Below are positions 46,273-50,155 of a DNA stretch of 64,000 bases, in pieces. The stretch covers positions 62,001-126,000 of the forward strand of contig NZ_JAIMCA010000006.1 of NCBI RefSeq assembly GCF_025499465.1, in the 5' to 3' direction. The stretch is from Allobosea sp. BH3 (GTDB taxonomy: Bacteria; Pseudomonadota; Alphaproteobacteria; Rhizobiales; Beijerinckiaceae). The position numbers and the translations under genes are program-made. The notes beneath the pieces were generated by a model. It was not told the origin of the DNA and made no database searches. It saw only the letters and a program-made list of their open reading frames with translations. The first letter of the stretch is position 1; each line of letters opens with the position of its first letter.

Positions 46273-46896
46273 TCAGAAGCGCTCGAGCCAGCCATGCAGC
46301 AGGCCGAGGTCGGCCTGGCCGAGACCATGGCCGGCCGGCAGCACGCGGTGCTCGACCGCCGCACCATTGTCGCCGAGCTGGCGGACCAGCCTTTCGGCGT
46401 TGGAGGCCGGAATGATCGGGTCCAGCGCGCCGGAGAGCACGAGCACGGGCTTGCTCGACAGGTCCGCCCGCGGCGCCTCGGCGAAAGGCACCATGGCGCG
46501 CAGCAGCGCCGCGCCCGCCAGCACATCCGGCCGTTGCAGAAGCATCGCGGCCGCGATGTTGGCGCCGTTCGAGAAGCCGAGCGCGATCGGAGCCGCTAGC
46601 CCGTAGCGCTCGCGTGCCTCCAGCACGAAATCGGCGAGTTCGTCGGTGCGGCGGCGCAGATCGTCCTCGTCGAAGACGCCTTCGGCCAGACGGCGAAAGA
46701 AGCGAGGCGCAGCGCCTTCCAGCACCTTGCCGCGCGGCGAGAGCAGGCTCGCGCCCGGAGCGACGGTGCGGCCGAGCGAGAGCAGGTCACGCTCGTCGCC
46801 GCCGGTGCCGTGCAGCAGCACAAGCGGCCGGCGTTCCAAGTCGCTGCCCTGCTCGAAGACATGGATGAAGCCGGTATCGGCCTTCGTGTCAGTCAT
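46273..46896 (-). CDS. alpha/beta hydrolase, phospholipase/carboxylesterase family (MhqD-like)
   Basis: A 207-residue cytoplasmic esterase with the full triad: Ser109 (LGFSNGANIA), Asp159 (SGALDPIIP) and His190 (PAGHGLG), and the oxyanion loop LLHGTGGDE. Length and motifs fit the carboxylesterase group that includes MhqD of Bacillus. ATG 46896 is preceded by AAGGGAGACGACACC. It follows the ring-cleaving dioxygenase gene on the same strand, 101 bases on, with a hairpin between them. Confidence 0.88.
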   Translation of the reverse strand: MTDTKADTGFIHVFEQGSDLERRPLVLLHGTGGDERDLLSLGRTVAPGASLLSPRGKVLEGAAPRFFRRLAEGVFDEDDLRRRTDELADFVLEARERYGLAAPIALGFSNGANIAAAMLLQRPDVLAGAALLRAMVPFAEAPRADLSSKPVLVLSGALDPIIPASNAERLVRQLGDNGAAVEHRVLPAGHGLGQADLGLLHGWLERF

Positions 46897-46959
46897 GGTG
46901 TCGTCTCCCTTCGTGAAGCGGAGGCGCCCTGCCCCATCGTTGGCAAACAGGGCGAAGTC

Positions 46960-46985
46960 GGTTCCGGGCCGAGCGGCCCGGAACC
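46960..46985 (-). terminator. intercistronic hairpin between dioxygenase and hydrolase genes
   Basis: Perfect 11-bp stem GGTTCCGGGCC / GGCCCGGAACC with a GAGC loop and no T-tract. It may reduce read-through or protect the upstream message. Confidence 0.45.
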
Positions 46986-46997
46986 TGTCGGCAAGCG

Positions 46998-47930
46998 TCA
47001 GTCGAGGGCGGGCAGGACCGCCTCGATCTCCTTGCGGTGCGCCTCATACTGCGGCGGCAGCTTCAGCGCGCGGCCCAGCTCGGCGGCCGGCTCGTCGACC
47101 GCGAAACCGGGGATATCGGTCGCGATCTCGAACAGGACATGGCCGGGCTCACGGAAGTAGACCGAGCGGAAGTAGTTCCGATCGCGCTGCTCCGTGGTGC
47201 GGATGCCGTGGTTCTCCCGCAGGCGGCGGACCATCTCCTCCTGTGCGGCGTCGTCGGCCGCCCGGAAGGCGATGTGGTGGACCGAGCCCGCGCCCTGCCG
47301 GGCCGGCAGGAAGCCGCCGGCGACGCGCAGATCGACGATGCCACCGATCTCCGTGCCCTTCACCGCATAGCGGATCAGGGTTTCCTCGCGAGCGACCTCG
47401 GCGAAGCCGAAGACGTCGGTCAGGATCGCGGCGGTGGGCGCCGCGTCGGCGATCAGCAGGCTGACGCTATGGAAGCCGCGGATCGCATACTCGGCGGGAA
47501 TACCTCCCTCGGACCAGAACGGCTCCTTCTCGACGCCCGGGACACCGACGAGGGCGAACCTCATCCCGTCCGGATCGCGGAAGCTCAGCACGCTCTCGCC
47601 GAAGCGCCTGGTCGGCGCCTCATGCGGAACGCCCTGCTCGACGAAGCGATGCGTCCAGTAGCCGATCGAACCTTCCGGAACCCGGAACACCGTCTCCTGC
47701 GTCTCGCCGACACCGAGGCGGCCCGGAGCGGCATGATCCCAGGGGAAGAAGGTCAGGATCGAGCCCGGAGCCGCGTCGGCGTCACCATAATAGAGGTGAT
47801 AGGTGCCGGGATCGTCGAAATTGACCGTCTTCTTGACCAGGCGCAGACCGAGCACGCGGCCATGGAAGTCGAGGTTGCGGCGGGCGGGGCCGGAGATTGC
47901 GGTGACGTGGTGAAGGCCGTTGATCTGCAT
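46998..47930 (-). CDS. VOC-family ring-cleaving dioxygenase (MhqO-like)
   Basis: A 310-residue protein made of two vicinal-oxygen-chelate modules. Metal ligands are expected in GLHHVTAISG (residues 5-14), SVHHIAFRA and the Glu of HVLFEIATD. Sequence and length match the hydroquinone-type ring-cleaving dioxygenase group (MhqO/MhqA). It is divergent from a DoxX gene and shares the 221-base spacer with it, together with a dyad that may be the LysR operator. Likely opens substituted hydroquinones or catechols. Confidence 0.88.
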   Translation of the reverse strand: MQINGLHHVTAISGPARRNLDFHGRVLGLRLVKKTVNFDDPGTYHLYYGDADAAPGSILTFFPWDHAAPGRLGVGETQETVFRVPEGSIGYWTHRFVEQGVPHEAPTRRFGESVLSFRDPDGMRFALVGVPGVEKEPFWSEGGIPAEYAIRGFHSVSLLIADAAPTAAILTDVFGFAEVAREETLIRYAVKGTEIGGIVDLRVAGGFLPARQGAGSVHHIAFRAADDAAQEEMVRRLRENHGIRTTEQRDRNYFRSVYFREPGHVLFEIATDIPGFAVDEPAAELGRALKLPPQYEAHRKEIEAVLPALD

Positions 47931-48035
47931 GGTTTGGTCCTCCGTGAGCTTCGAGTGCCTAGCGGGCCAGCCCTTCCGGCCTCGCTGTGTTGGCCGAAAG
48001 ATCGGCGCATGGAGGGCAAAGCGCTAGACCCAATT

Positions 48036-48053
48036 CATTGCACCCGCGCAATG
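48036..48053. promoter_or_regulatory. candidate LysR operator
   Basis: CATTGC-ACCCGC-GCAATG, a perfect dyad containing a T-N11-A pattern, in the divergent spacer between the dioxygenase gene and the DoxX gene. It is a reasonable binding site for the LysR protein encoded just downstream of doxX. Confidence 0.5.
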
Positions 48054-48151
48054 TCCATATCGCTGAACTACAATTTGATTTGCGAAAGGAACGAGATGAT
48101 CTTGTGCCTCGAGACCAACCCGGTCCCGTTTCGTTTTCAGGAGACATGACC

Positions 48152-48577
48152 ATGATCGACAATCGCCTCGCCCCTTATGGCGCCCTCAGCCTGCGTATCG
48201 CGCTCGGTGCCATGTTCATCGCCCACGCCTATCTCAAGCTCGTCATCTTCACCCCGGCCGGGTTCGCCGGCTTCCTCGGCCAGGTCGGCCTGCCGAGCGC
48301 CCTCGCCTGGCCGATCATCCTGGCCGAGCTCGTCGGCGGCCTCGCCATCCTCTTCGGCTTCTACGGCCGCTACGTATCGCTGCTGCTGCTGCCGGTGCTG
48401 TTCGGCGCGCTGGCCGTCCACGCCCCGAACGGCTGGGTGTTCAACGCCCCGAACGGCGGCTGGGAATATCCCGCCTTCCTGGCGCTGACGGCCTTCGCCC
48501 ATGCGCTGATCGGCGACGGCGCCTTCGCGTTGAAGTCGGCCAGCTTCGGCGAGCGCGTCCGCCCGGCCGTCGCCTGA
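48152..48577 (+). CDS. DoxX-family membrane protein
   Basis: A 141-residue protein with four membrane helices and the DoxX features RIALGAMFIAHAYLKL and LAELVGGLAILFGFYGRYV. ATG 48152 is spaced 6-7 bases from an AGGAGA box; ATG 48146 is too close. DoxX proteins (such as MhqP of Bacillus) accompany quinone and thiol-stress enzymes in the membrane. Divergent from the dioxygenase gene and followed by the LysR gene. Confidence 0.88.
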   Translation: MIDNRLAPYGALSLRIALGAMFIAHAYLKLVIFTPAGFAGFLGQVGLPSALAWPIILAELVGGLAILFGFYGRYVSLLLLPVLFGALAVHAPNGWVFNAPNGGWEYPAFLALTAFAHALIGDGAFALKSASFGERVRPAVA

Positions 48578-48621
48578 GCGCGGTGCTTGAAGGACTACAA
48601 GGCTTGGCGGAGACTGCGCGG

Positions 48622-49599
48622 ATGATTCAAGCCGCCAAGTCCCCTGCCAAGCCTTCCTCCGCCAAGCCTCTTGCCGCGAATGCCCTGGCCTGGGACGATT
48701 TCCGCCTGATCAAGGCCATCGCAGACAAGCGAGCGCTGCCCGCAGCCGCGGCAGCGCTCGGCGTCAATCACTCGACGGTGTTCCGCCGGCTCGGCCAGAT
48801 CGAGGAGGCGCTCGGCGTCAGGCTCTTCGAGCGGCACCGCTCGGGCTATGTCGCGACGCCCGCCGGCGAGGAGATGGTGCAGCTGGCATCCCGTGTCGAT
48901 GACGACATCAATGCTTTCGCACTCAAGCTCGCCGGCCAGGAAATCACGCCTGCCGGCGAGTTGCGCGTCGCCACCAACGACACTCTCGTGGTCGACCTGC
49001 TGACGCCGCTCTTCGCGCAGTTCCTCGGCGAATGCCCGGAGATCCGCCTCGACATCCTCATCGGCAACAGGGCCGCCAACCTCTCCAAGCGCGACGCCGA
49101 CGTGGCGATCCGGGCGACCGACAATCCGCCCGAGACGTTGATCGGCCGCAAGCCCGCCCGCATCGTCTGGGCGCTTTACGGCCGCGCCGTCGATTTTCCC
49201 GATACCGAGCGGCCGCCTGTCGAGGCGCTCTGGCAACGAAGTTGGGTCTCGCTCGGCGAGGAATTCGCCGCGATGAACGCCTACCGCTATGTCGCACTCC
49301 ATGTCGCGCCGGAACGGGTCGCCTATAAGCTCAACACCGTTCTCGGCCTCGCTGAGGCGGTCGAGGCCGGCATCGGCATCGGCTTCCTGCCCTGCTTCAT
49401 CGGCGACACGCGGCCCGGGCTGACGCGACTCGCTCCGCCCGATCCTGCGCTCGCCGCCGATCTGTGGCTGCTGACCCATCCTGACATGCGGCACACGCCG
49501 CGCGTCAGGCTGTTCCTCGATTTCATGGCAGCCGAGCTGGCGCGGCTGAAGCCGCTGATGGAAGGCGATCGTCCGATCGGGGGCGGCCTGCCGGAATAA
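48622..49599 (+). CDS. LysR-family transcriptional regulator
   Basis: A 325-residue regulator. After a flexible Ala/Pro/Lys-rich N-terminus of about 22 residues comes the winged helix (FRLIKAIADKRALPAAAAALGVNHSTVFRRL, here split: recognition helix around NHSTVFRRLGQIE). The substrate-binding domain starts near residue 110 (LRVATNDTLVVDLLTPLF). ATG 48622 follows GGAG; GTG 48583 is an alternative. The HTH variant with NHSTVFRR is the AmpR/GcvA-like subtype. It probably controls the divergent dioxygenase/DoxX genes. Confidence 0.9.
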   Translation: MIQAAKSPAKPSSAKPLAANALAWDDFRLIKAIADKRALPAAAAALGVNHSTVFRRLGQIEEALGVRLFERHRSGYVATPAGEEMVQLASRVDDDINAFALKLAGQEITPAGELRVATNDTLVVDLLTPLFAQFLGECPEIRLDILIGNRAANLSKRDADVAIRATDNPPETLIGRKPARIVWALYGRAVDFPDTERPPVEALWQRSWVSLGEEFAAMNAYRYVALHVAPERVAYKLNTVLGLAEAVEAGIGIGFLPCFIGDTRPGLTRLAPPDPALAADLWLLTHPDMRHTPRVRLFLDFMAAELARLKPLMEGDRPIGGGLPE

Positions 49600-49815: not shown

Positions 49816-50133
49816 TCAGGCCGAGACCAGCTTCAGCCCGACGATTCCGGCGACGATCAAGCCGATGCAGGCGAGGCGCAACGCGCCGGCGGGCTCGCCG
49901 AGAAGTGCTATGCCAAGGATCGCGGTCCCGATCGTGCCGATGCCGGTCCAGATGGCATAGGCGGTGCCGACCGGCAGCGATTTCAGCGCCAGCCCGAGCA
50001 GCCCGAGGCTGACGATCATGCTAGCAAGGGTGAGAAGGGTGGGCATCAGGCGGGTGAAGCCCTGCGTATATTTCAGGCCGATCGCCCAGCCGACCTCGAA
50101 CAGACCCGCGACGAACAGATAGAGCCAGGCCAT
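49816..50133 (-). CDS. gdx: guanidinium exporter, SugE/Gdx-type SMR protein
   Basis: A 105-residue four-helix SMR protein with the essential Glu13 ([16 protein letters not shown]) and [13 protein letters not shown], both typical of the SugE/Gdx branch, which exports guanidinium in exchange for protons. Start ATG 50133 has a GAGGAGG box 6 bases upstream. A guanidine-II riboswitch lies in the leader, which makes the guanidinium role much more likely than the older quaternary-ammonium label. Also known as sugE. Confidence 0.93.
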
Positions 50134-50155
50134 CACGGCCCTCCTCGACGATGCA

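Follow-up and report, generated by a model that had tools for sequence, protein, structure and literature searches.

A candidate LysR-controlled set of MhqO-, MhqD- and DoxX-like genes in Alphaproteobacteria, with a predicted TTGC-N6-GCAA operator and a probable role in hydroquinone and quinone detoxification

Defence against quinones is best known from Firmicutes, where it is run by the MarR/DUF24-type repressors MhqR, YodB and QsrR, and where mhqP is the DoxX-type gene of the MhqR regulon. In Bacillus subtilis and Staphylococcus aureus this regulon (mhqNOP, mhqED and azoR2; mhqRED) comprises an MhqO-like dioxygenase, an MhqD-like esterase and a DoxX-type protein, placed under the MarR-type repressor MhqR, for which a 9-9 base pair (bp) operator over the start site is described (PMC6798810). 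Here we describe a matching gene set at positions 46273-49599 of a 64,000-nucleotide stretch of the 5.25 Mb genome of Allobosea sp. BH3 (contig NZ_JAIMCA010000006.1, 62,001 to 126,000; hereafter the window), in which the genes of a ring-cleaving dioxygenase, an esterase, a DoxX protein and a LysR regulator are arranged around a divergent spacer. We regard the locus as probably a LysR-controlled detoxification unit for hydroquinone- or quinone-type aromatics that is found in many Alphaproteobacteria.

LysR regulators have been described over either half of such a set. In Escherichia coli, the LysR protein YhaJ is reported to be required for hydroquinone and catechol to induce the DoxX gene yqjF, and to control the dioxygenase gene ygiD, its regulon also including yhaK, yhhW and others (PMC5031710). 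The two systems are alike in placing a LysR over a DoxX gene and a dioxygenase gene and in the T-N11-A type of their boxes, but the YhaJ box is given as TCA-N7-TGA and the one described here is TTGC-N6-GCAA. Orthology to YhaJ was rejected, as the alignment reached 30% identity over 87 amino acids of the DNA-binding part only and the effector domain was not meaningfully aligned. YgiD, moreover, is of another fold than the present dioxygenase. Dioxygenases from the family of ours also come under LysR control, LinR-LinE being one such pair. In Sphingobium, the LysR protein PcpR is likewise described as controlling PcpA, a hydroquinone dioxygenase of that family (PMC4264193); PcpR, however, is not close to the window's LysR by sequence, and no catabolic partners were recognised beside the present locus. 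The closest solved LysR is LsrB of Agrobacterium, described as an oxidative-stress regulator (PMC11975290), yet it is only ~25% identical to the window's. No LysR-run mhq-like set turned up in the open-access PubMed Central literature. Each half of the arrangement is known, namely LysR over a dioxygenase and LysR over DoxX, and what appears to be new, to judge from these literature searches, is their combination and its operator in Alphaproteobacteria.

All four genes of the locus have open frames and are ordered, from left to right, as the esterase gene (46273-46896, minus strand), the dioxygenase gene (46998-47930, minus strand), the spacer, doxX (48152-48577, plus strand) and lysR (48622-49599, plus strand). 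The frame of lysR opens with a GTG at 48583, but the ATG at 48622 is the likelier start, since in most homologues the similarity to the longer frame begins no earlier than about residue 30-35. A preliminary description of this DNA had noted a CATTGC-N6-GCAATG dyad in the divergent spacer; it is present exactly, at 48036-48053, its centre ~110 nucleotides from the start codons of both the dioxygenase and doxX genes, though the spacer is bordered by doxX and not by lysR, which is the second gene of the rightward unit.

The families assigned to these genes in that description were confirmed. The closest solved relative of the dioxygenase, which is 91% identical to a Bosea sp. TND4EK4 protein and so marks the genome as Bosea-like, is B. 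subtilis MhqO (3oaj, E 3.9e-79, nearly full length), followed by the 'glyoxalase family protein' 1zsw and then PcpA (E 4.5e-43). Its His8, His219 and Glu268 align with His11, His227 and Glu276 of PcpA, which we take to be the iron ligands, so that the 2-His-1-Glu metal site is present; hydroquinone ring cleavage is the activity of this family. A Pfam scan of seven window proteins, those of the locus included, matched the DoxX protein to PF07681 (E 1e-15), both the N-terminal HTH_1 (PF00126) and the LysR_substrate (PF03466) domains of the regulator above cut-off, and the esterase to the alpha/beta hydrolases, with alignment placing a putative triad at Ser109, Asp159 and His190 (presumably the catalytic residues). 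The esterase is MhqD-like in that MhqD (NF047577) is its best NCBIfam model, but its 133.9 bits lie below the cut-off of 325.

The match to the Bacillus mhq regulon stands for the MhqO/MhqD/DoxX-like set but is not supported as regards membership: no PF01047 MarR match was found in the window (30 in the genome; PF12802 was not searched) and no PF02525 azoreductase match (3 in the genome; nitroreductases were not searched). Where the MhqR regulon has a MarR repressor, this locus has a LysR and a TTGC-N6-GCAA site well before the start codons. The locus would work like Bacillus mhq, yet given the lack of a PF01047 MarR gene in the window and the MhqD score of the esterase it is not a member of the mhq regulon.

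By itself, the dyad is weak evidence, not beyond chance. It is the sole exact copy in the genome, but a perfect 6-bp inverted repeat with a gap of 4-8 nucleotides arose in 20% of 2000 shuffled spacers, and the window holds 6 sites with up to two mismatches where 3.57 are expected, a number reached by 18 of 100 shuffles. What gives the dyad significance is its segregation with the type of LysR, and it was this comparison that led us to reject a chance repeat as its origin, though shuffling alone could not exclude one. Relatives were collected by a scan of public genomes with the dioxygenase, from which the best 80 of 590 confirmed relatives were used; a class-wide search at E 1e-100 gained one genome outside the family. 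The esterase gene follows that of the dioxygenase in 73 of the 80. A LysR was termed 'A type' if its identity to the window's was 40% or more, the window's own included, and 'adjacent' if divergent from the dioxygenase gene within 1.5 kb. An adjacent A-type LysR is present in 36 of the 80 relatives, with doxX in between in 16 of these 36, and its hosts include Bosea, Microvirga, Ancylobacter, Labrys, Skermanella, Pseudoroseomonas, Roseomonas, Rubellimicrobium, Aureimonas, Agrobacterium and Rhizobium. Five annotated plasmids share the order LysR, ring-cleaving dioxygenase, alpha/beta hydrolase.

In the same divergent place, other relatives carry other LysR proteins, designated B type (L109, L113, L117, L122, L124, L131, L135, L138-L140, L142-L145, L147-L150 and L155) and C type (L119, L126, L141, L146 and L153). 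Identity to the window's LysR is 22-25% in the four examples compared, and 35-40% between the B and C examples; these lineages face the same dioxygenase in Bradyrhizobium-type and Methylobacterium/Methylopila-type genomes. To judge from the sequences, they represent repeated regulator replacement at the same dioxygenase. In PDB searches with B- and C-type LysRs, CrgA-like and other matches were obtained, with no clue to an inducer. The string CATGGATTGTCTCCAATC, with an imperfect inverted repeat, precedes the dioxygenase gene in 7 of 13 Bradyrhizobium loci.

The core of the dyad, TTGC-N6-GCAA, occurs within 260 nucleotides upstream of the dioxygenase gene in 35 of 36 A-type loci (L094, on a short contig, counted as A type), versus none of 19 B-type and none of 5 C-type loci (0/24 together); 0.35% of 4000 shuffles contained it, and these controls, like those of the spacers, preserve base composition only. 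Because the rows are related, the loci cannot be taken as independent events; with one entry per genus or lineage label, the core is present in 19 of 20 A-type and 0 of 8 B/C entries (Fisher p 3e-6). A second genome set, overlapping the 80, had the core in 20 of 22 cases with an adjacent A-type LysR (all but G193 and G326), and the plasmid loci (two of Skermanella, and those of Paroceanicella, Roseomonas and Pseudoroseomonas) had it in five of five.

If the core is the site of the A-type LysR, genomes with a core and no neighbouring LysR should hold one elsewhere. The core was found in 15 of 20 loci lacking any A-, B- or C-type LysR divergent beside the dioxygenase, and wherever it occurred without a LysR within 1.5 kb, an A-type LysR was present elsewhere in the genome (15/15, at 49-73% identity, one match being partial). 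These 15 include L085, whose LysR lies ~1.6 kb from its dioxygenase and so beyond the limit, and three Microvirga genomes (L128, L129 and L132) with the LysR beside a second dioxygenase copy. For comparison, of the genomes that lack both the core and an adjacent A-type LysR, 8 of the 28 searched (out of 29) hold an A-type LysR, all five C-type genomes among them. Of 32 detached A-type LysR genes, counted as distinct loci not beside a dioxygenase, 21 have a core close to the start of the gene (-113 to +2), and it is present in 6 of 7 detached loci where the LysR is divergent from doxX; both counts are without a shuffle control. Finally, the dioxygenase-esterase unit is separate from the LysR-doxX pair in three Xanthobacter and two Phreatobacter-like genomes, and there the core is found at both, linking doxX to the regulon by evidence other than gene order.

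To summarize, comparison of the relatives supports the view that the T-N11-A dyad is conserved together with its regulator and is probably the operator of the A-type LysR, as the preliminary description had suggested. Its proposal that a LysR takes the place of MhqR also fits the co-segregation as far as the regulator is concerned, but the arrangement is not peculiar to this genome, recurring in many Alphaproteobacteria and, in addition, with two unrelated LysR lineages.

Copies of the operator elsewhere were sought with the 10-base pattern ATTGC-N6-GCAAT in 11 genomes, hand-picked from those with an adjacent LysR and dioxygenase (the same-genus genome G378 was left out). The window's genome and two same-genus genomes contain 3, 4 and 5 copies, and the backward control gave 0 in each. 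Eight of these 12 copies are at the 5' end of VOC-superfamily genes, three of them being the dioxygenase spacer itself; the other five lie at that end of the gene of an MhqO paralogue (39-41% identical; two genomes) or of a two-domain PF00903 protein (all three genomes), and add to the case for a LysR site. In the window's genome this second operator lies ~100 nucleotides before the likely start of the PF00903 gene (operator and gene together at L156:1460-2439; G000:C10 about 113960-114940), whose product matches FosA, catechol 2,3-dioxygenase and HpaD in NCBIfam, all far below cut-off. The remaining four copies comprise two inside other frames, one near no recognised gene and one (L160:1515-1530, in the same-genus genome G366) that is 82 nucleotides before the gene of an MFS transporter, possibly an exporter of the regulon. 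The eight genomes from outside the genus have 34 copies, of which 6 are the dioxygenase spacer. A regulon larger than the locus is supported by comparison, strongly only within the genus.

Taken together, sequence comparison supports the identity of the operator, the partner genes and the sharing of sites in trans. We propose that LysR sits on the dyad and that, once bound to an inducer, most likely hydroquinone, quinone or a related diphenol as the gene families suggest, it would switch on both divergent units, dioxygenase-esterase to the left and doxX-lysR to the right, probably acting as an activator rather than a repressor. The dioxygenase would then open the ring and the esterase would hydrolyse the cleavage product or an ester or thioester adduct, chemistry suggested by their families, and DoxX would, to judge from its own, act in the membrane. 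We are evenly divided on a wider proposal, by which this LysR would represent an undescribed family, the alphaproteobacterial counterpart of MhqR/YodB. Such a family would sense hydroquinones or quinones and, bound to TTGC-N6-GCAA, would control a dispersed regulon in which several VOC-type dioxygenases are joined by an MhqD-like esterase, by DoxX and by the regulator itself. On the same proposal, at least two further, unrelated LysR lineages (B and C), whose operators differ, would have captured the same dioxygenase-esterase pair.

A number of observations weigh against the detoxification unit and operator as proposed. The esterase does not reach the level of an MhqD equivalog. An adjacent LysR without the full core is found in Hansschlegelia, the exception among the 36 A-type loci, and in G326 (L056). 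Copies of the A-type LysR are also found apart from the dioxygenase, and all five C-type genomes hold one though their dioxygenase lacks the site, which indicates that in some genomes this regulator serves other functions. In L158 and L159 the site falls inside the first 60 nucleotides of the longest open frame, and the true start must be later for it to stand before the gene. Outside the genus, a recognised VOC gene follows only 1 of the 28 copies that are not the spacer, making the 10-base pattern a poor regulon finder there; recognition of VOC genes in those genomes relied on similarity to two VOC proteins and the window's genes, and more distant ones could be missed.

Three other explanations were weighed against a detoxification unit. 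The first is that the locus is catabolic and not protective: its LysR would sense a substituted phenol, such as a chlorinated or plant-derived one, and its enzymes would belong to a growth pathway, as described for PcpR-PcpA (PMC4264193). The place of PcpA among the solved relatives of the dioxygenase and the control of PcpA by a LysR speak for it, as does structure comparison: the model of the window's LysR (predicted local distance difference test score 88.8) has, among the matches listed, LsrB first and the PcpR inducer domain second (Z 18.5), followed by the CrgA and NodD effector domains. These scores are nearly tied, at Z 18-20, and structure comparison therefore does not decide the ligand; PcpR is also missing from the 24 PDB sequence matches that the LysR gave at E 0.001. 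MhqO is clearly closer to the dioxygenase than PcpA, and no maleylacetate reductase, phenol monooxygenase or quinone reductase was seen among the seven scanned window proteins or in the five annotated plasmid stretches, although no dedicated search was made. We consider a catabolic unit rather unlikely.

Alternatively, the set may be truly run by its LysR but answer another signal, such as general redox or electrophile stress or a plant phenolic, the regulator being a relative of stress regulators such as LsrB. LsrB is its best solved relative both by sequence (E 2.9e-23) and by structure (Z 19.8), and a cysteine, Cys258, is invariant in 30 of 30 aligned LysRs and present in 57 of the 60 rows that cover the site (the window's own copy and some repeats among them). 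Against this stand the low identity to LsrB, which has Asp at the aligned position, the presence of Cys258 also in LysR copies away from the dioxygenase, and its replacement by Val or Thr in two dioxygenase-linked LysRs with intact sites (L017 and L022), which weakens thiol sensing by this residue as a necessary mechanism. Such a signal seems to us improbable. The window's genome also encodes a paralogous LysR (L031:7069-7995; G000:C7, C7:57098), 60% identical and with the same cysteine, which has no full operator core upstream and whose neighbour, read from its translation, is an MFS transporter.

The last alternative, that the dyad is another regulator's site or a chance repeat and LysR acts elsewhere, draws on the frequency of such repeats in shuffled spacers and on the two loci with an adjacent LysR but no full core, and is made highly doubtful by the segregation of the core with the LysR type across genera and its recurrence at detached LysR genes.

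Beyond the dyad, further parts of the spacer are conserved. In 12 aligned Bosea-type spacers, with a mean column identity of 58%, the ATTGC and GCAAT arms are invariant, and a second, mostly invariant block resembling CAATTTG-ATTGC lies on the doxX side; in the window this is the CAATTTGATTTGC block at 48071-48083 (plus strand), ~32 nucleotides from the dyad centre. A TTGC is present at this spacing in 21 of the 35 A-type loci that have the core. By analogy with LysR activators, the dyad and the second block may correspond to a recognition site and an activation site, the latter lying towards doxX-lysR. On the dioxygenase side, the blocks 47998-48003 and 48022-48027, ~18 nucleotides apart, contain several invariant columns in the same alignment and could be the -10 and -35 elements of a promoter of the dioxygenase-esterase unit (minus strand). 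A scan of 47900-48700 for sigma-70 consensus promoters gave one match, outside the spacer, and none within it.

Two features of the neighbourhood were also recorded. Behind the esterase, a second MhqO-type dioxygenase, 40-44% identical to the window's, is encoded in L070, L071, L087, L092, L094, L096, L101 and L108, from Skermanella, Microvirga, Arenibaculum and Rubellimicrobium. Downstream of lysR in the window is a small multidrug resistance (SMR) gene (49816-50136, minus strand); a relative of it occurs near the dioxygenase locus in 12 of the 80 relatives, all 12 of them Bosea, perhaps a mere shared neighbourhood.

Hydroquinones and catechols are common where environmental and plant-associated bacteria live, and knowledge of the operator and regulator of such a set in Alphaproteobacteria would allow the quinone response to be tested in such bacteria. 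The LysR system could, in addition, yield a hydroquinone sensor part. Lastly, after mhq and YhaJ, the present locus would link the poorly understood DoxX proteins to ring-cleaving enzymes for a third time.

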